Shown piece after piece: positions 40,936 through 48,588 of a DNA stretch of 64,000 nt; position 1 is the stretch's first letter; every line of letters begins with the position of its first letter. Made by a program: the position numbers and the translations under genes. Origin of the DNA: Mesorhizobium sp. C432A (GTDB lineage Bacteria; Pseudomonadota; Alphaproteobacteria; Rhizobiales; Rhizobiaceae); NCBI RefSeq assembly GCF_030323145.1, contig NZ_CP100470.1, forward strand, positions 558,001 to 622,000, given 5' to 3'. Under the pieces are notes generated by a model that saw only the letters and a list, made by a program, of their open reading frames with translations, did no database searches and was not told the origin of the DNA.

Positions 40936-41922
40936 ATGAAGAAGTTTATGAATTCCGTCGACACGGTGCTGACCGAAAGCCTCAACGGCTTCGTTGCAGC
41001 TCATGCCGACATCCTGGTGCTGGGCGAGGAGCACAAATTTATTCGCCGCAAGGTGATGAAGCCGGGGAAGGTGGCGCTGATCTCGGGCGGCGGTTCCGGC
41101 CACGAGCCGTTGCATGCCGGCTTTGTCGGTCACGGCATGCTGGACGCCGCCTGCCCCGGCCAGGTCTTCACCTCGCCAACGCCGGACCAGATACTGGCGG
41201 CGGCCGCCGCCGTCGATACCGGCGCCGGCTGCCTGTTCATCGTCAAGAACTATGAAGGCGACGTGATGAATTTCGACATGGCCGGCGAAATGGCCGACGG
41301 CGTCCTGCAGGTGGTGATCAATGATGACGTCGCCGTCGAGAATTCGTCCTTTACGACCGGCCGGCGCGGCGTCGCCGGCACGCTGGTGGTGGAGAAGATC
41401 GTCGGCGCCGCCGCCGAGCAAGGCATGGCGCTGGCGGATCTCAAGGCGCTCGGCGGTCGCATCAACAGCGCGACGCGTTCGATGGGCGTGGCGCTGACCA
41501 GTTGCACGGTGCCGGCGGCCGGCAGGCCGACCTTCGAGATTGGCGATGGCGAGATGGAATTCGGCGTCGGCATTCATGGCGAGCCCGGCCGGCGTCGCGA
41601 CACGTTGAAAAGCGCCGATGCGATCGCCGAAGAGATTTGCGCCGCGATCCTGGGCGATCTCGGCGACAGGGCGAAAGGCCCGGCACTGTTGTTCATCAAC
41701 GGCTTTGGCGGCACGCCGCTGATGGAGCTCTATCTGATGTACAACAGCGCCCGAAACATCTTCGAAAAACAGGGCGTGACGGTGACCCGCTCGCTGGTCG
41801 GGTCCTACGTGACATCGCTCGACATGGCCGGCTGCTCGATCACGCTGACCATGCTGGATGACGAGGCAACGTCAATGTGGGACGCGCCGGTGCACACAGC
41901 CGCGCTGCGCTGGGGACTGTAA
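40936..41922 (+). CDS. dhaK: PTS-dependent dihydroxyacetone kinase subunit DhaK
   Basis: A 328-aa substrate-binding subunit. GGGSGHEPLHAGFVGHGMLD and the covalent-binding His in VGIHGEPGRR are visible. It is close in length to E. coli DhaK (about 356) and lacks a DhaL domain, unlike the fusion at 35884. It works with DhaL, DhaM, HPr and EI encoded upstream. A GGGAGGA ribosome site precedes ATG 40936. It is last in the operon. Confidence 0.94.
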   Translation: MKKFMNSVDTVLTESLNGFVAAHADILVLGEEHKFIRRKVMKPGKVALISGGGSGHEPLHAGFVGHGMLDAACPGQVFTSPTPDQILAAAAAVDTGAGCLFIVKNYEGDVMNFDMAGEMADGVLQVVINDDVAVENSSFTTGRRGVAGTLVVEKIVGAAAEQGMALADLKALGGRINSATRSMGVALTSCTVPAAGRPTFEIGDGEMEFGVGIHGEPGRRRDTLKSADAIAEEICAAILGDLGDRAKGPALLFINGFGGTPLMELYLMYNSARNIFEKQGVTVTRSLVGSYVTSLDMAGCSITLTMLDDEATSMWDAPVHTAALRWGL

Positions 41923-42058
41923 CGGAGGGGCCTTGCCCATATCCCGAACAGGCGGCTTATGAACTTGCCTTAGCCTGCGGGACCGGACGGACCGTTACCC
42001 GCAGTCACGCCGACAGATTGCCCGCCTGCAGCGCGGCTTGCCTTGCGGCCGACCGCTC

Positions 42059-42081
42059 CGGCTTCATCCGAACCGAAGCCG
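42059..42081 (-). terminator. Weak hairpin just after the RiPP precursor gene
   Basis: On the minus strand, CGGCTTC and GAAGCCG pair around a 9-nt loop, starting 8 nt after the precursor stop. There is no T-run; it may stabilise the short mRNA or cause partial termination. Confidence 0.4.
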
Positions 42082-42089
42082 TAGAAGTC

Positions 42090-42182
42090 TTATCGCGGTA
42101 TCGGCAGCGACGGCCCGGCCACCACGCTGGACAACTTTCCTGCCTTGCGCAGCACGGGCGCTTCATACTTTTTCTTGGCCAT
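42090..42182 (-). CDS. Putative lasso-like RiPP precursor peptide (30 aa)
   Basis: A short gene starting MAKKKYEAPVLRKAGKL and ending VVAGPSLPIPR. The YxxPxLxxxG pattern (Tyr6, Pro9, Leu11, Gly15) is the leader signature read by PqqD-type B1 proteins in lasso-peptide systems. AAGGG lies about 10 bases upstream of the ATG, and a promoter-like TTGACT/ATTCTT lies further up. It is flanked by the nucleotidyltransferase gene, with the kinase, B2 and PqqD genes beyond. If cleavage follows the penultimate Thr rule of lasso peptides, no Thr is available here, so processing must differ or occur elsewhere. The call rests on the leader motif and neighbourhood. Confidence 0.7.
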   Translation of the reverse strand: MAKKKYEAPVLRKAGKLSSVVAGPSLPIPR

Positions 42183-42210
42183 TCCAAACACCCTTTTCAG
42201 TCCAGTGCAA

Positions 42211-42239
42211 AAGAATGGACCGAAACCGTGGAAAGTCAA
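42211..42239 (-). promoter_or_regulatory. Candidate promoter of the RiPP precursor gene
   Basis: On the minus strand a TTGACT (42239-42234) and an ATTCTT (42216-42211) are 17 bp apart, 28 bp upstream of the precursor ATG. The -10 match is weak. Confidence 0.4.
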
Positions 42240-42370
42240 TTCATGAGCTGGTTCTGCCACCACACGCTGGCTTCATGCATGCTTTTCTGCAACATACGCT
42301 CCTCTGAGTTGGTTGTTTGACGCAATTCCGGACGGGAATTGCTGATGTGGGCGAACGCAATCCGGGTTTG

Positions 42371-43396
42371 ATGCTGCCATCTCTTGCGCCTGCCGATGAA
42401 AAACTGCTGCTGACCTTCGCCGACCCGGAGGCGACGGTTGCCATTGGCCGTGACGTTGCTGCCGAAAGCTTGCTGGCACTGCTCGCCAATGCCGAGTTCC
42501 ACGGCGTGCTGCCGATCATGCTGCGCAAGCTCAGCGAGATTGGCGACGCCCAACTGCCTGCGGACGCAGCCTTGCGGCAAAAGCTGTCGGAACTGCGTGA
42601 TCGCTCGACGCTGGCGACCGGCCAATCGATGCTGCTGCAATATCATGGCGACCGCATCATGAAGGCATTGGCGGCGAAAAATGTTCCGGCCCGCATCGTC
42701 AAGGGTCCGGTCTTCGCACGCAAACTTTACCGCCACGCCGCTGACCGGCCGTTCACCGACATCGACATTCTGGTCGAGCCGGCCAGCATCATTGAAGCCA
42801 ACACGGTGATTGCCGGATGCGGCTTCGAGCTCTGGAGCGGCGAGGCGCAGTCGCAGGATCTGCAGGAGTTCAAGTGGCTGGAGAAGGAGAATACCAGCCT
42901 GCTGATCGAACTGCACGGCAACCTGGTGCATGATTCCGGCATGCGGCGGCGGCTGTCGCTGGGCTTTCGCGAATTGCAGATCATCGACGGCGGCGAGGCC
43001 GACACGCCGGCCGCGCTGCTGACCATCGCCATTGTCCACGCCGCCGGCGGGCACAAGTTCCACCGGCTGCAGCTTTGCGTCGATGTGCTGCAGGGCGTGC
43101 GCGCGCTGCGGTCGCCCGCGGATGAAGACCGGCTTTTCGAGGCGGCGCGCATCAGCGGCATCGAGCTCGAACTGGCGACGGTTCTCAATGTGACGGGGCG
43201 GCTGTTTGATGCACCGCGCGCGATCGAACTGGCCGACCGCATCAAGCCCGGCCTCTCGATATTTTTGGCCAAATGGCTGATCACCGGCGATACGCTGCTC
43301 GGCGTCAATTCCAGGGACAAGATGCATTCGCGCCTGCGCCGCGACGCCTTCCGCTGGATCCAGCGCCTCGCCAGGCCAAAGCCGCATTCTGCCTGA
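42371..43396 (+). CDS. Nucleotidyltransferase (NTP_transf_5 type) of the RiPP cluster
   Basis: A 341-aa protein from ATG 42371; the frame is open from a TTG at 42317, so the start is uncertain. It has the pol-beta-like catalytic motif FTDIDILV in ADRPFTDIDILVEPASI, preceded by IVKGPVFARKLYRH, features of the nucleotidyltransferase family that accompanies some lasso-peptide clusters. A helical C-terminal half follows. It is convergent with the kinase gene (8-nt gap) and divergent from the precursor gene. It may modify the peptide or a kinase product; the actual substrate is unknown. Confidence 0.82.
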   Translation: MLPSLAPADEKLLLTFADPEATVAIGRDVAAESLLALLANAEFHGVLPIMLRKLSEIGDAQLPADAALRQKLSELRDRSTLATGQSMLLQYHGDRIMKALAAKNVPARIVKGPVFARKLYRHAADRPFTDIDILVEPASIIEANTVIAGCGFELWSGEAQSQDLQEFKWLEKENTSLLIELHGNLVHDSGMRRRLSLGFRELQIIDGGEADTPAALLTIAIVHAAGGHKFHRLQLCVDVLQGVRALRSPADEDRLFEAARISGIELELATVLNVTGRLFDAPRAIELADRIKPGLSIFLAKWLITGDTLLGVNSRDKMHSRLRRDAFRWIQRLARPKPHSA

Positions 43397-43404
43397 AGTG
43401 TGCT

Positions 43405-44400
43405 TTAGTCTCGCGCCGCCAGCGCCGAGCGGATCAGCGGGGCCGCCTCGGCCGGGTTCGCGCCGACTTCCAGGGTAAATGTCGGGACGGCTTTGACCAG
43501 CGTTGCGATGGTTGCCATGCGGCGCTTCTGCGCCGGCAAAAGGCCGGTCATGCCGGTCCTGACATTGTCGGTGGCAAGCGCCACCATGGCGTCTGTCCTG
43601 GTCATGGGCACGAGCCGGGTTTGCGCGTCCGCCGAGCGGGCGAGATGAAACAGTGCCGCAACCGGTCTGCCGACAGTTTCCTCGATGCGGATGATCTCGG
43701 CGAGACGTTCCAGCGAGACGGCCTGCTCGCCATTGGCGTCCCATTTGTCGCCAAGGCAAGGCGCCACGAAGGGCAGCATTGCCGCGGTGTGGCGGTGGAC
43801 CTTCACCTTGCGCGGCAAGCCCCAGGCCGTGATGCCGCCACCGGCCAAAACCTTGAGGATCATGGCGTCATCCGAGCACAGGCCGAAACCTTGCGACGCC
43901 AGCGCCAGCGACGTCGTCGACTTGCCGGTGCCGCTCGGCGCATGGATCAGCACGAGCGCCTCGCGGCCGGGCAATGTCAGGCCGGCGGTGTGCAGCATGT
44001 GCTGGTCGCCGGCATCAAGTGCTGCATCCAGCACCATCATCAGCACCGTCCATTTGACCTTGGCATCGGGATGGACTCGTATCTCGGCCCAGCCTCCATC
44101 GGCATTGATCGAGACGGTCTGCAGGCCGGGAAAGACCAGATGAACGGTGCCGCCACCGTCGATCAGCCGGCAATGGCCGTCCTCCGGCACCTCGCCGTCG
44201 AAAGCGAGTTTTCCGGCAGGCGATTCCGGTAACTCCCGCGTCTCGACGATGTCGACGCGGAAATCGGGCTCGACCGGCCCGCTCACGCGCAACGTGCCGA
44301 GCAAGAGGTCGAAGCTCGGCCAGAGATCGGCCCGCGAGGCCGATATGCTGATGACCTGGCCCTGGAGATCATAGCAGAAGGTGGTCGCCGGACCGGTCAA
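43405..44400 (-). CDS. HPr-kinase-like serine kinase of the RiPP cluster
   Basis: A 331-aa protein with an HprK-type P-loop: ALVLIHAPSGTGKSTTSLALASQG and a following SDDAMIL acidic motif. Relatives in lasso-peptide clusters phosphorylate a C-terminal Ser of the precursor. No CAP or HTH domain of true HPr kinase is seen. The start is taken as TTG 44400, which overlaps the B2 stop (TTGA); translation of the upstream part of the longer frame is the antisense-like shadow of the B2 gene. The overlap supports a PqqD-B2-kinase operon. Confidence 0.85.
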   Translation of the reverse strand: MTGPATTFCYDLQGQVISISASRADLWPSFDLLLGTLRVSGPVEPDFRVDIVETRELPESPAGKLAFDGEVPEDGHCRLIDGGGTVHLVFPGLQTVSINADGGWAEIRVHPDAKVKWTVLMMVLDAALDAGDQHMLHTAGLTLPGREALVLIHAPSGTGKSTTSLALASQGFGLCSDDAMILKVLAGGGITAWGLPRKVKVHRHTAAMLPFVAPCLGDKWDANGEQAVSLERLAEIIRIEETVGRPVAALFHLARSADAQTRLVPMTRTDAMVALATDNVRTGMTGLLPAQKRRMATIATLVKAVPTFTLEVGANPAEAAPLIRSALAARD

Positions 44401-44831
44401 GCAGCGTGCGCCTTTCCGGCATCGGCGTGATGGCGATAGATCTGCACCATGCCGGGGAGGCTGTCCGAGACCACCGGGCGGCCATCGAGACAGACCCAGC
44501 AATGGGCAGACATACGCGGCGCCTGCATCGACTTCGGATCGACGCCGAAGCGCAGATCCGGATCGAAGCCGGCAAAGCGCAGGAAGCGGTGGGCGAGCAG
44601 GCCCTCGCGCAGGCATCTGCGGTCGCGCATCAGCCAGGGGTGCCGGACGGTCCGGTTGACGGCAGCGACGATGTAGGCTGACGACAGGCCGCGATAAGGG
44701 GTGTGTGCGCTGAGCGGCGCCCATTTCAGCACCGATTCGAAGCTGCGGCGGCCGATCAGGGTCGGCATCAGCCGCGCACTTGCCCATAAATGGACACGAA
44801 ACAAAGCGCGCAGGAGAACGCCGTCCACCAT
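44397..44831 (-). CDS. Lasso-peptide-type B2 leader peptidase (transglutaminase-like)
   Basis: A 144-aa cysteine protease-like protein of the B2/McjB C-terminal family. Catalytic residues are visible: Cys in RDRRCLREGLLAHRFLR (about residue 73), His in SAHCWVCLDGRPV (about 109) and Asp in VVSDS (about 121). It removes the leader from the precursor. It overlaps the PqqD gene by ATGA and the kinase by TTGA. B1 and B2 are separate proteins, as in many proteobacterial and actinobacterial clusters. Confidence 0.88.
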   Translation of the reverse strand: MVDGVLLRALFRVHLWASARLMPTLIGRRSFESVLKWAPLSAHTPYRGLSSAYIVAAVNRTVRHPWLMRDRRCLREGLLAHRFLRFAGFDPDLRFGVDPKSMQAPRMSAHCWVCLDGRPVVSDSLPGMVQIYRHHADAGKAHAA

Positions 44832-45118
44832 CAGGGAGCCGGGTCGGCGAGAATGCCTTCGCTCACCAGTTCGGCGGCCAGCGCCGCCATGTCCTGGTCG
44901 AGCGTGCCCTTGTCGACCTCGAACTCGTCAGACAACAGGACGACGATCTGGTCAAGGCTGCGGGCGCCGTCCACCTTGTCGAGAAAGGCTTCGGTGGTGC
45001 CGTTGCAGGTGTAAAGCTGGCCGCTGCGCGCCAAGAGCACGACGGCGCCATCGCCGACATGCTGGACCGAGGCGTCGTCCGCCAGCCGCAGAACCATTTC
45101 AGAACCGATTTGGGCCAT
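44831..45118 (-). CDS. PqqD-family RiPP recognition protein (B1-like)
   Basis: A 95-aa PqqD-like RRE domain. It shows GDGAVVLLARSGQLYTCNGTT, then AFLDKVDGARSLDQIVVLL and DQDMAALAAELVSEGIL, the three-helix/three-strand pattern of PqqD. It binds the leader peptide (probably the YxxPxL motif of the peptide at 42090) and presents it to B2. A GGAGGGG ribosome site precedes ATG 45118; the longer frame upstream is not used. Confidence 0.88.
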   Translation of the reverse strand: MAQIGSEMVLRLADDASVQHVGDGAVVLLARSGQLYTCNGTTEAFLDKVDGARSLDQIVVLLSDEFEVDKGTLDQDMAALAAELVSEGILADPAP

Positions 45119-45469
45119 GGAGCCCCTCCACCATTTTCCTGGAGAGCAGATAGCGCGGCGATGCGGGTCTGTCCATTGCGCGGACGAGAGGGAGAACAGG
45201 CCGGCCTGACCGTTCTGTGGCAATCCGGCAACGCCACCATCCTCACGACACAGGCAACCGAAGCCTAATGGAGACATCCAATCTCAGATTGTGGTAACTT
45301 CCACATGATTCAGAGCCTGAGAACAGGGAAGCACCCCAGAAATAGTCGGTGATTGCAGCTGGGAATCACCGCCGCAAACGGTCAAGCCAGCTATCTCGCA
45401 GGGTCAAGGTCTTGCTTTTCTTACCTAAAGTAAGCTATGGAGTCGCGGGGTTTTGGGAGAGCATTGGGT
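45119..45469. other. Upstream region of the RiPP operon; no gene recognised
   Basis: About 350 bp without a convincing ORF on either strand. It should contain the promoter of the minus-strand pqqD-B2-kinase operon and, near its right end, a promoter-like TTGCTT/TAAGCT for the small plus-strand ORF. No second precursor peptide was found here. Confidence 0.6.
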
Positions 45470-45586
45470 ATGCGTTACAACTGGGAGCGGGCTCCGACCG
45501 CGTTCGAACGTCATCGAAAAGCATTGGCAGCCGCCATATTGATCGCGGGTGGCGTCGGGCTGATGCTGGCGGCCTTGCCGCTTTAA
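45470..45586 (+). CDS. Tiny membrane peptide candidate (38 aa)
   Basis: ATG 45470 is preceded by GGGAGAG at a good distance. The peptide has a charged start (MRYNWERAPTAFERHRKA) followed by a single hydrophobic helix (LAAAILIAGGVGLMLAALPL) and then stops. It is shorter than the usual cut-off. Such peptides are common and often associate with membrane complexes. No family is recognised. Coding status rests on the ribosome site and the clean helix. Confidence 0.45.
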   Translation: MRYNWERAPTAFERHRKALAAAILIAGGVGLMLAALPL

Positions 45587-45664
45587 GACCTGATATCCGA
45601 CACGAACGCCCTGCTTTCTCCGGGCGCATGAGCTTTTTCTGCCTGCCACAAGACGGGCCGCGGC

Positions 45665-46510
45665 TTAGCGTGCATGGCCGGTTACGGCGATGAAGCGGCG
45701 GTCGCGTCCTTCGAAGCCCTGGCTGAAGCGCTGCACCAGCACCGCCACTACCGCCGGCCTGCCGGGCGGGGTGTATTCGTAGGATTCCGACAGGCTGTAG
45801 GAAGTCGGGCAGTTGCGCGAGCCCGGCACGGCCTTGTCCTCGTGCAGCACCTTGAGCGGCTTGCCGTCCTGCCCCTGCAGCGACAGGCGGAAGCCGCGCG
45901 CCTTGCCCGTCTTGGCGCCTTGAAGTTTCTTTTCGCCCTGAAGTGTCTTGTCGCTCGGAAGAGCCTGGTCGCTTGGCTTGGCGTCATCAAAGCTTGCCGA
46001 GCAGTCCGTCTTGCTGTCGGCCAAAATCTCGTCGAGCTGGATGGTCGAAATCTGTGTTTCGCCATAGAACGGCGACAGCCATTTCTGCGCGGCCTGATCG
46101 AGGCGACGGATGTCGTTGTAGTCGACCGTGTCGTCCGGGAAGGTGAACCTGTCGGAGGCCGTGCGCGTGCCGCGCTCGGCGATGGCATATTTGGCCAGGA
46201 TTGGCGCGGCCTGCTTTGCGGCCTGCGCCCGTGCCTGCTCCACCGTCGTGGTCGCCTCTTCCGATTCATCGAGGACAAGGATCGGCTTGCCGCCGACGAA
46301 CTCGTCTGTGCTTGTGTCGATGATGTCGATCTGCGACCAGCCGGAAACGGCAGCGTCGAGCTCGCCATATTGCTCGAAGGCGAAATATTTGCCGTCGGGG
46401 GAAAAGCCGATGATGCGCCGCGCGGCGGCATCGCCGGCCTGGGCGGCGAAAACGATCGTCAACAGCAGCGCTGCTCCAACGGCAGATCCAACCCCGTATC
46501 GTACCGTCAT
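45665..46510 (-). CDS. DUF2259 secreted protein
   Basis: A 281-aa periplasmic protein with a signal peptide (MTVRYGVGSAVGAALLLTIV..., cleavage near AQA/GDA). The start of the mature region, RRIIGFSPDGKYFAFEQYGELDAA, is typical of DUF2259. A low-complexity stretch with repeated Lys/Gln/Ser (SDQALPSDKTLQGEKKLQGA) lies in the middle. ATG 46510 is preferred to 46543 because it gives a better signal peptide. Function unknown. Confidence 0.8.
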   Translation of the reverse strand: MTVRYGVGSAVGAALLLTIVFAAQAGDAAARRIIGFSPDGKYFAFEQYGELDAAVSGWSQIDIIDTSTDEFVGGKPILVLDESEEATTTVEQARAQAAKQAAPILAKYAIAERGTRTASDRFTFPDDTVDYNDIRRLDQAAQKWLSPFYGETQISTIQLDEILADSKTDCSASFDDAKPSDQALPSDKTLQGEKKLQGAKTGKARGFRLSLQGQDGKPLKVLHEDKAVPGSRNCPTSYSLSESYEYTPPGRPAVVAVLVQRFSQGFEGRDRRFIAVTGHAR

Positions 46511-46680
46511 TGCGCGCCCTGCCCCGATTTCAAACCCGGCCATGGTGCCTGCAATTTATGGCCAAGGCGAGATCGGCCAAGCCCCAAATTTCGGGAAAGA
46601 CATGGCATTTGGGGAAAGACGTGGCCGGGAAAACCCGCATAGGCTATTGCAAGATAGAGAGTTTTCCCGAGGAGGGATGA

Positions 46681-48588
46681 ATGGCGTCACGCTACCACGA
46701 GGTCTATGACGGCTGGAAACGCGACCCGGAACAATTCTGGGCCGATGCGGCCGAGGCGATCGACTGGTATTCGCCGTGGACCAGCGTCTTCGATGCCAAG
46801 GCGGGCGTTTACGGGCGCTGGTTCAACGGCGCCAGCTGCAACACCTGCTTCAACGCTCTCGATCGCCATGTCGCAGGCGGCCGCGCCGACCAGATCGCAC
46901 TTATCTACGACAGCGCGATCACCGGCACGGTCAAGAAATTCACCTATGCCGAATTGAAGCGCGAAGTGGTAGCGCTGACTTCGGTGCTCAAGAACCGCGG
47001 CATTCGCAAAGGCGACCGCGTCATCATCTACATGCCGATGGTGGCCGAAGCGGCGGTCGCGATGCTTGCCTGTGCCCGCATCGGCGCGGTGCATTCGGTG
47101 GTGTTCGGCGGCTTTGCCTCGCACGAGCTCGCCACCCGCATCGACGACGCCAAGCCGAAGCTGGTCATCTCCGCGTCCTGCGGCCTGGAGCCTGGACGTG
47201 TCGTGGCCTACAAGCCGCTGCTCGACAAGGCGATCGAAATGTCCCGCCACAAGCCGGACGCCTGCCTGATCCTGCAGCGCGACCAGCTGCGCTGCGATCT
47301 GAGGGAGCATTACGATATCGATTTTGCCGACGCCGTTGCCCGCGAGCGCGCCGCGGGCGCCAACGTCGATTGCGTTCCGGTGCTCGCCACCGACCCGCTC
47401 TACATCATCTACACCTCCGGCACGACCGGCCAGCCGAAGGGCATCGTGCGCGACAATGGCGGCCACATGGTCGCGCTCAAATGGACGATGGAAAACGAGT
47501 TCGGCGTCAGACCGGGCGAAGTATTCTGGGCGGCCTCCGATGTCGGCTGGGTGGTCGGCCATTCCTACATCGTTTACGGACCGCTGCTGCATGGTGCGAC
47601 AAGCGTGCTGTTCGAGGGCAAGCCGATCGGCACACCCGACGCCGGCACCTATTGGCGGGTGATCGCAGAACACGGCGTGGTCGCGCTGTTCACCGCGCCG
47701 ACGGCCTTCCGCGCCATCAAGGGGCAGGACCCCAAGGGCGAATTCGTGCCGAAATACGATCTGTCGAAATTCCGCACTCTGTTCCTGGCCGGCGAACGCG
47801 CAGACCCGGAAACCATCAAATGGGCGGAGCAGAAACTCAACGTGCCGGTGGTCGATCATTGGTGGCAGACCGAGACCGGCTCGCCGATGACCATCAACCC
47901 GGCGGGCCTCGGCCTGCTGCCGGTGAAATACGGCTCGCCCGGCGTGCCGATGCCGGGCTACGACATTCGCGTGCTCGACGATGCCGGCCATGAAGTGCCG
48001 CGCGGCACACTTGGCAATGTGGCGGTGAAACTGCCGCTGCCGGCCGGCTGCCTGCCGACGCTGTGGAATGCCGACGAGCGTTTCCGGCAAGCCTATCTCG
48101 AGGAATTTCCCGGCTTCTACAAGACGGCCGATGCCGGCATGATCGACGACGACGGCTACCTCTATGTCATGGCGCGCACAGACGACATCATCAATGTCGC
48201 CGGACACCGGCTGTCGACCGGAGCCATGGAGGAGGTGCTTTCAGCGCATCCCGATGTTGCCGAATGCGCCGTCATCGGCGTCGCTGACGCTATGAAGGGC
48301 CAGGTCCCGCTCGGCTTCGTCGTGCTCAATGCCGGTGTGTCGCGCGATACCGCTGCCATCGAAGGCGAAGTGGTGGGGCTGGTGCGCGAACGGATCGGCC
48401 CGGTCGCGGCCTTCAAGACCGTGGTGACGATCAAGCGCCTGCCCAAGACGCGCTCCGGCAAGATCCTGCGCGGCACCATGCAGAAGATCGCCGACAAGGA
48501 AGAATGGACGATGCCGGCGACTATCGACGATCCCGCCATTCTTGACGAGATCACCGCGGCGCTCAAAGCCCGCGGCATCGGGGTCTGA
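46681..48588 (+). CDS. prpE: Propionyl-CoA synthetase
   Basis: A 635-aa acyl-CoA synthetase of the ANL superfamily, converting propionate, CoA and ATP to propionyl-CoA. Motifs: P-loop YIIYTSGTTGQPKGIVRDNGG, DHWWQTETGSP, hinge GYLYVMARTDDIINVAGHRLST, and the acetylatable Lys in KTRSGKILRGTM. Length and N-terminus (YHEVYDGWKRDPEQFWADAA) match PrpE better than acetyl-CoA synthetase. GGAGGG precedes the ATG. Confidence 0.94.
   Translation: MASRYHEVYDGWKRDPEQFWADAAEAIDWYSPWTSVFDAKAGVYGRWFNGASCNTCFNALDRHVAGGRADQIALIYDSAITGTVKKFTYAELKREVVALTSVLKNRGIRKGDRVIIYMPMVAEAAVAMLACARIGAVHSVVFGGFASHELATRIDDAKPKLVISASCGLEPGRVVAYKPLLDKAIEMSRHKPDACLILQRDQLRCDLREHYDIDFADAVARERAAGANVDCVPVLATDPLYIIYTSGTTGQPKGIVRDNGGHMVALKWTMENEFGVRPGEVFWAASDVGWVVGHSYIVYGPLLHGATSVLFEGKPIGTPDAGTYWRVIAEHGVVALFTAPTAFRAIKGQDPKGEFVPKYDLSKFRTLFLAGERADPETIKWAEQKLNVPVVDHWWQTETGSPMTINPAGLGLLPVKYGSPGVPMPGYDIRVLDDAGHEVPRGTLGNVAVKLPLPAGCLPTLWNADERFRQAYLEEFPGFYKTADAGMIDDDGYLYVMARTDDIINVAGHRLSTGAMEEVLSAHPDVAECAVIGVADAMKGQVPLGFVVLNAGVSRDTAAIEGEVVGLVRERIGPVAAFKTVVTIKRLPKTRSGKILRGTMQKIADKEEWTMPATIDDPAILDEITAALKARGIGV

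Follow-up and report, generated by a model that had tools for sequence, protein, structure and literature searches.

Ser kinases that act on the precursors of lasso-related RiPPs (ribosomally synthesized and post-translationally modified peptides) have been published as BsfK, LppK, and PadeK (PMC10368454, PMC13381572, PMC9266682). BsfK phosphorylates core Ser3 on the precursor, the reaction is accelerated by BsfB1, a RiPP recognition element (RRE), and Ile or Val can stand in for Thr at leader position -2 (PMC10368454). PsmN leads to a hexose on phospho-Ser, or may nucleotidylate phospho-Ser (PMC9266682). In LPP (linear polyphosphorylated peptides), a system stated to be restricted to Bacillota, LppK adds one or more phosphates to Ser3, the precursor without phosphate is cleaved poorly, and deletion of LppN changed nothing detectable in the host (PMC13381572, Nat Commun 2026). 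We analyzed a locus at positions 42090-45118 of a 64,000-nucleotide window, the whole stretch of DNA under analysis, which spans bases 558001-622000 of the 6.02-Mb single-contig genome of Mesorhizobium sp. C432A. The locus joins genes for an RRE, a leader peptidase, an HprK-like kinase, and a nucleotidyltransferase with a 30-residue precursor gene, and we interpret it, with a probability of roughly 0.7, as a lasso-derived RiPP system without a cyclase that turns trans-encoded precursors into short linear phosphopeptides.

Results

A conserved operon and its dispersed precursors

An initial annotation of the window had proposed an operon of PqqD, B2 peptidase, and HprK-like kinase genes, a nucleotidyltransferase gene (NTP_transf_5) that converges on it, and a 30-residue precursor gene; all five genes were confirmed (Table 1). 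The kinase was matched strongly in 29 of 37 genomes of the genus in a first sample, which included the own genome, and was present in 80 of 119 in a second (E ≤ 1e-20). At 29/29 syntenic loci, all four operon genes lie together in a stretch of a few kb, close to a gene of the acetyl-CoA synthetase type (with a Dak1 gene at 28), and a scan with the kinase pattern returned 75 loci, every one of which holds all four. The operon also occurs in Oricola, two Devosia, and one Xanthobacteraceae metagenome-assembled genome, and a kinase profile run over 397 genomes of the order gave 12 matches outside the genus, 11 of them at loci with all four genes (seven genera, six families); the remaining match, in G155, is weak and its locus does not hold them. 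No match to an Asn-synthase cyclase was obtained (tblastn, five queries, E ≤ 0.01) in 116 loci around operons, a set that includes order-level loci, one locus without the operon (L279), loci truncated at a contig end, and several that were present via two collections. Gene content and the lack of a cyclase near the operon, like the conserved motifs described below, are direct observations.

The precursor in the window is one of a dispersed family. A search with an alignment of 11 precursors yielded 12 matches in the own genome (E < 0.01): the window gene, a tandem of three at ~5.17 Mb, a pair at ~4.105 Mb, two at ~0.284 Mb, and single genes near 0.500, 5.029, 5.079, and 5.221 Mb. The family members have 28-40 residues, with a leader of the form KKxYxKPxLxKxxKLSxV[VT]A followed by a short variable core. 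The lasso leader pattern noticed in the initial annotation is kept family-wide as YxxPxL (Y in 161, P in 163, and L in 147 of 163 precursors). Its expectation that the precursor would be conserved beside the four genes was borne out for the leader family, which is real, but adjacency is optional and the family is encoded elsewhere too: a leader-like open reading frame (ORF) adjoins the operon at 9/29 syntenic loci (six in front of the nucleotidyltransferase gene, three upstream of PqqD), and a precursor is within reach of the operon at 36/75 loci of the kinase scan. At one Devosia locus (L189), we also noticed a truncated leader-like ORF without a proper core.

The precursors are present or absent together with the kinase of the operon. 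At E ≤ 1e-3, they were found in 80/80 kinase-positive vs. 2/39 kinase-negative genomes of the genus (Fisher test: P = 8.7e-29, which ignores kinship among the 119 genomes). All 80 kinase-positive genomes match at E ≤ 1.7e-5, and each has 3-20 matches at E ≤ 1 (median 9), a threshold at which kinase-negative genomes yield 0-3 matches, nearly all weak. In other genera, a leader-only search gave 2-14 precursor matches for 8 of 11 operon-positive genomes. It gave none (E ≤ 0.1) for 15 genomes that were drawn from 24 other-family genomes and selected for lacking a clear match to the kinase (that in G046 is weak). Local matches in G493/G357, G444, and G248 arise by construction, because the search alignment (A5) contains their operon-side leaders; those in G161, G276, G481, and G504 are independent, as are the distant arrays, and arrays such as that at G357:C17:240844-241885 sit on a different contig from the operon. 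This link between precursors and operon is observed directly, as are the selection on the leader and the invariant Ser reported next.

An invariant Ser in otherwise variable cores

We read 163 distinct precursors with a leader-only model, after dropping leaders that scored <15 bits, were gapped, ended before column 20, or had no near start codon. These filters removed one of the 12 own precursors; all 12 have a core Ser. The cores are 5-15 residues long (median 8), except for two with tails of ~40 residues. Ser is present in 163/163, when 37.8 cores without it would be expected from their own composition, while Gly, Pro, Val, Ala, and Thr are absent about as often as expected. The first Ser stands at core position 3-5 in 129/163, and its codons are of both kinds (132 TCN, 31 AGY). 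Conservation of the core, a check named in the initial annotation, thus came out divided: Ser is invariant, and every other position is variable, with no other residue fixed. All 78 cores that are mutually <50% identical keep Ser, whereas at least 6 lacked it in each of 5000 shuffles.

The search alignment used over the genus might favor Ser because it held core columns. In sets free of this bias, Ser occurs in 52/52 precursors at loci that were retrieved through their kinase only and in 36/36 short cores of other genera obtained with leader-only models, the latter read from 30 loci returned for 52 listed matches, plus operon loci. One long-tailed candidate from another genus, outside the set of 36, has an early Ser as well. 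Across Mesorhizobium and the other genera, 199/199 of the cores counted bear Ser.

Selection acts in frame on the leader (pN/pS, the ratio of nonsynonymous to synonymous polymorphism, is 0.21, with leaders chosen by DNA identity), and Shine-Dalgarno-like motifs stand before 155/163 of the precursor genes. These two results, together with a Ser that stays invariant while its neighbors vary and the joint presence or absence of precursors and kinase, make it hardly credible that the small ORFs are degenerate repeats or lasso-precursor relics that recombination has scattered and that mostly have no function. Such an origin would fit their dispersed positions, for which no shared neighbor gene was apparent by eye in the own genome (the ORFs were not run against Pfam), and the single copies in two kinase-less genomes.

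Genes of the locus

The genes for PqqD, B2, and the kinase overlap on the minus strand and NTP_transf_5 converges on this trio, while the precursor gene is divergent from, and in front of, the nucleotidyltransferase gene (Table 1). The 188-bp region between the last two was searched for sigma-70 promoter and terminator consensus sequences, and none matched. The precursor itself scores weakly against curated leader models (lasso_leader_L3: 17.3 bits, cut-off 19; DUF5972: 16.7 bits, cut-off 22.6). The B2 peptidase reaches 67.8 bits with NF033537 (cut-off 33). The genome holds two B2 peptidase matches, of which this is one.

Table 1 Features of the locus and of related operon loci
Feature	Position	Strand	Basis
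PqqD-type RRE (discrete lasso B1 type)	44831..45118	-	Above Pfam cut-off; nearest TfuB1
B2 leader peptidase (Transglut_core3)	44397..44831	-	Above Pfam and NCBIfam cut-offs
HprK/PEPCK-fold kinase	43405..44400	-	Motif residues, predicted fold; below curated cut-offs
NTP_transf_5 nucleotidyltransferase	42371..43396	+	PF14907, 90.7 bits, over Pfam cut-off
Precursor gene, 30 aa, leader MAKKKYEAPVLRKAGKLSSVVA, predicted core GPSLPIPR (Ser3)	42090..42182	-	Leader family
Divergent intergenic region, 188 bp, between precursor and nucleotidyltransferase genes	42183..42370	none	
AMP-ligase/GNAT module beside operon	L186:8087-10315; L187:8255-10326; L188:7970-10147; L189:7946-10117; L268; L278		

Residues H137, S156, G157, G159, K160, D177, and D178 of the kinase, which cover the P-loop, the His, and the Asp-Asp pair, are invariant across nine aligned kinases, and the His-Lys-Asp-Asp of the published lasso kinases likely have their counterparts among them, by our own pairing. 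The predicted fold of the kinase is of the PEPCK type. HPr kinase chains are absent among the best 50 matches listed in either fold comparison, which is no counter-evidence because HprK and PEPCK have a common fold. In the nucleotidyltransferase, the motifs KG..FA and DRPFTDIDI are kept in five aligned proteins (two of the Mesorhizobium type, and those of Oricola, Xanthobacteraceae, and Devosia); at E ≤ 0.001 its predicted model matched nothing in the PDB, and the rows above this threshold were weak and nucleotidyltransferase-like.

Three neighboring genes scanned in the window encode proteins of the Dak1, DUF2259, and acetyl-CoA synthetase types. Other identities for the locus were considered and rejected. 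For an anti-phage system, PADLOC yielded only three weak P-loop matches, all to the kinase; for a structured RNA, Rfam gave no match over 41900-46700; for a plasmid-borne module, the kinase was unmatched at E ≤ 1e-10 in 72,556 plasmid records. Nor did the operon arise by recent duplication of the lasso cluster in this genome: the nucleotidyltransferases, kinases, and B2 proteins are 25-30% identical over short stretches, and the PqqD proteins do not match each other.

The neighboring lasso cluster

A separate lasso-type cluster lies at C1:626177-633507 (L010:10178-17508), 4.2-11.5 kb past the right edge of the window, with genes for a nucleotidyltransferase, a precursor (core GGSGTTALDASFPAHTPVGELTFS, G1/D9 type), PqqD, B2, a cyclase, an HprK-like kinase, and an ABC exporter. 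The absence of a cyclase claimed in the initial annotation thus holds around the operon, but the genome does have a cyclase gene, in this different cluster. The core GG[SGA]G[TSN]TA[LI]D is shared by the own genome and 6/6 relatives whose clusters were read (eight loci were fetched, two of which were operon regions of cyclase-less genomes). The own cyclase is split over two frames (L010:12775-14690), being a pseudogene or an assembly error; it is open in all six relatives (636-798 codons). By eye, the genes around this cluster look like polysaccharide synthesis. Another Asn-synthase gene is found at C1:2578925-2580048 (L005, L006), where the profile matches two adjoining pieces that lie in different frames.

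In the 119 genomes, the cyclase occurs in 86, both operon and cyclase in 76, the operon without the cyclase in four, and the cyclase without the operon in 10. It could be argued that the dispersed precursors are substrates of the lasso cluster, with its cyclase acting in trans and the operon just tailoring. The two clusters share a genome and a leader motif class, they often co-occur, and the presence of the cyclase correlates with that of precursors (78/8/4/29, P = 2.6e-16), less tightly than that of the kinase. This is nevertheless very improbable. The lasso cluster itself encodes a PqqD, a B2, and a conserved precursor, and its cyclase gene is frameshifted in the own genome; the four operon-only genomes retain 6-9 precursor matches each, whereas eight of the ten cyclase-only genomes have none at E ≤ 1e-3 (G137 and G139 have one each); and operon loci of other genera have no nearby cyclase match. 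The dispersed precursors follow the four-gene operon, not the lasso cyclase. A cyclase and a different precursor co-conserved elsewhere, which the initial annotation had named as an observation that would speak against it, do exist in this cluster, but only half of the objection stands, as the clusters dissociate (4/119 and 10/119) and the precursors go with the operon.

The cores lead to the same result. As anticipated from the window precursor, they are unable to form a lasso: none of the 163 both has at least 13 residues and carries D/E at positions 7-9. A true lasso was therefore rejected, with no cyclase nearby, the ring acceptor missing, and cores too short; because neither the cyclase nor a ring-forming core was found, the four-gene system is not a lasso system.

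Transporters and accessory genes

A LAS_D ABC exporter query matched two Devosia loci among the 75 and none in Mesorhizobium, and it matched 2 of the 12 loci L268-L279. In Devosia, an ABC permease/ATPase and a membrane-fusion-like protein (MacAB-like by eye) are encoded upstream of the precursor array (L188:679-3874, L189:548-3743). The lack of a linked transporter in the Mesorhizobium loci tested would suit a product that acts inside the cell, as a signal or cofactor-like peptide for which only leader cleavage and phosphorylation matter, the nucleotidyltransferase acting elsewhere. Its gene is indeed on the opposite strand here, and loss of LppN had no detectable effect in the LPP host. We consider this unlikely, however, since all complete operon loci examined have the nucleotidyltransferase gene (29/29, 75/75, and 11/11), and since in Devosia this gene runs in the same direction as that of the kinase and overlaps the one that follows.

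Genes for an AMP-ligase (at least 53% identity) and a GNAT protein accompany 6 of 15 non-Mesorhizobium operon loci, four of them with a carrier protein too; six further such loci gave weak AMP-ligase matches only. In Devosia, this module overlaps the nucleotidyltransferase gene by 4 nt. The three proteins suggest that the product may be acylated in those genera. In the own genome, no clear GNAT homolog was found (best E = 0.001). Near the operon in G276, a longer protein with a lasso-like leader is encoded at L269:4701 on the minus strand (also in L311), and we take it to resemble a phage tail-fiber chaperone domain.

Discussion

By analogy with Bsf, LPP, and PsmN, we propose that PqqD would bind the leader via the YxxPxL motif and present it; that the HprK-like kinase would phosphorylate the core Ser, typically residue 3-5 past the leader, reading it at about a set distance; that B2, with PqqD, would cleave after the last leader Ala; and that NTP_transf_5 would cap the phosphate with a nucleotide, or with a hexose as for PsmN. 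The product would be a linear peptide of mostly ~5-15 residues, and would stay linear because there is no cyclase. We infer these enzymatic steps and the order in which they occur, as well as the cut site, the modification that the product finally bears, and its biological role. The linear, phosphorylated and/or nucleotidylated peptide of the initial annotation is partly supported: the proposal points the right way, the invariant core Ser speaks strongly for it, and phosphorylation and nucleotidylation are putative.

Several points weigh against this interpretation. We infer the product, its phosphorylation, and its cleavage so far from sequence and by analogy. The kinase scores under every curated HprK family cut-off, and a PDB sequence search returned nothing for it (E ≤ 0.01) or for the nucleotidyltransferase family (E ≤ 0.1). 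Leader position -2 is divided between Val (87/163) and Thr (61/163), so a cut after the last Ala rests on analogy with Ile/Val(-2) systems. Two kinase-negative genomes carry one clear precursor each (G137:C1:2261596 and G139:C1:3615307), perhaps relics after loss of the operon; the G139 assembly has 11% contamination. Conversely, 3 of the 11 operon-positive genomes of other genera (G194, G393, and G275) lack a precursor at E ≤ 0.1. The correlation of precursors with the cyclase and the scarcity of LAS_D matches described above belong here as well.

More tentatively, and with the odds somewhat against so broad a claim, the system could be a new RiPP class of Alphaproteobacteria in which one machine serves up to ~20 fast-diversifying trans-encoded micro-precursors per genome, giving linear peptides of 5-15 residues whose invariant Ser is capped with phosphate plus nucleotide or sugar, and which serve as strain-specific signals or weapons, further acylated in some genera. 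As to role, the peptides may be signals, weapons, or intracellular effectors. A dozen variable peptides per genome in a root symbiont raise a question of signaling or competition, and the invariant Ser renders the chemistry directly testable. Because the precursors are separated from the machinery, genome mining based on clusters would miss most substrates. RRE-Finder flags a discrete lasso RRE as a possible false positive when peptidase and cyclase do not occur with it (PMC7470986); since this operon has a peptidase and no cyclase, some RREs discarded for a missing cyclase may be real systems.

Comparison with known systems

The nearest published system is LPP (PMC13381572), which has in common with the present one a discrete RRE, an HprK-like kinase, a nucleotidyltransferase, a YxxP leader, a variable C-terminus, Ser3 as kinase target, the lack of a macrolactam cyclase, and genomes that often hold a lasso cluster too. 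LPP differs in its peptidase, of the SpI type (archaeal-type signal peptidase I), in whose place B2 stands here (the SpI model was not run), and in a linked MsbA-like transporter, whereas none was found linked in the Mesorhizobium loci tested. Its precursors are 1-3 in number, clustered, and 35-200 aa long, against a median of nine dispersed matches (E ≤ 1) per kinase-positive genome here, with cores of median 8 residues; its leader reads YxxPxVLxHQxIxFETxxS rather than YxKPxLxKxxKLSxV[VT]A; and it belongs to Bacillota, not Alphaproteobacteria. Judged by its genes and leaders, the system is akin to LPP in its working but lies outside it, with neither the transporter nor the leader consensus of LPP and with B2 for SpI. 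Linear phosphopeptide RiPPs would then extend from Bacillota to Alphaproteobacteria, with a different peptidase.

Lanthipeptide synthetases form thioether rings. Trans-acting, promiscuous synthetases (SyncM) resemble the present system in that a single enzyme serves many substrates (PMC9872173), but their chemistry and enzymes are unrelated. The phosphorylated lasso system Bsf shares A, B1, B2, kinase, and nucleotidyltransferase, the Ser3 target, and Ile/Val(-2), and differs in having a cyclase, a transporter, a G1/D8 ring core, and an in-cluster precursor (PMC10368454). Paeninodin and pseudomycoidin share the kinases PadeK and PsmK and the nucleotidyltransferase homolog PsmN, but there the kinases target the C-terminal Ser, on a peptide that goes on to form a lasso (PMC9266682). 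We found no account of the present system among the open-access papers listed in our search, subscription papers and bioRxiv being beyond the scope of the search. The system is a new variant within the cyclase-less, kinase-bearing branch of lasso-related RiPPs, and its hallmarks are trans-encoded precursors and very short cores.

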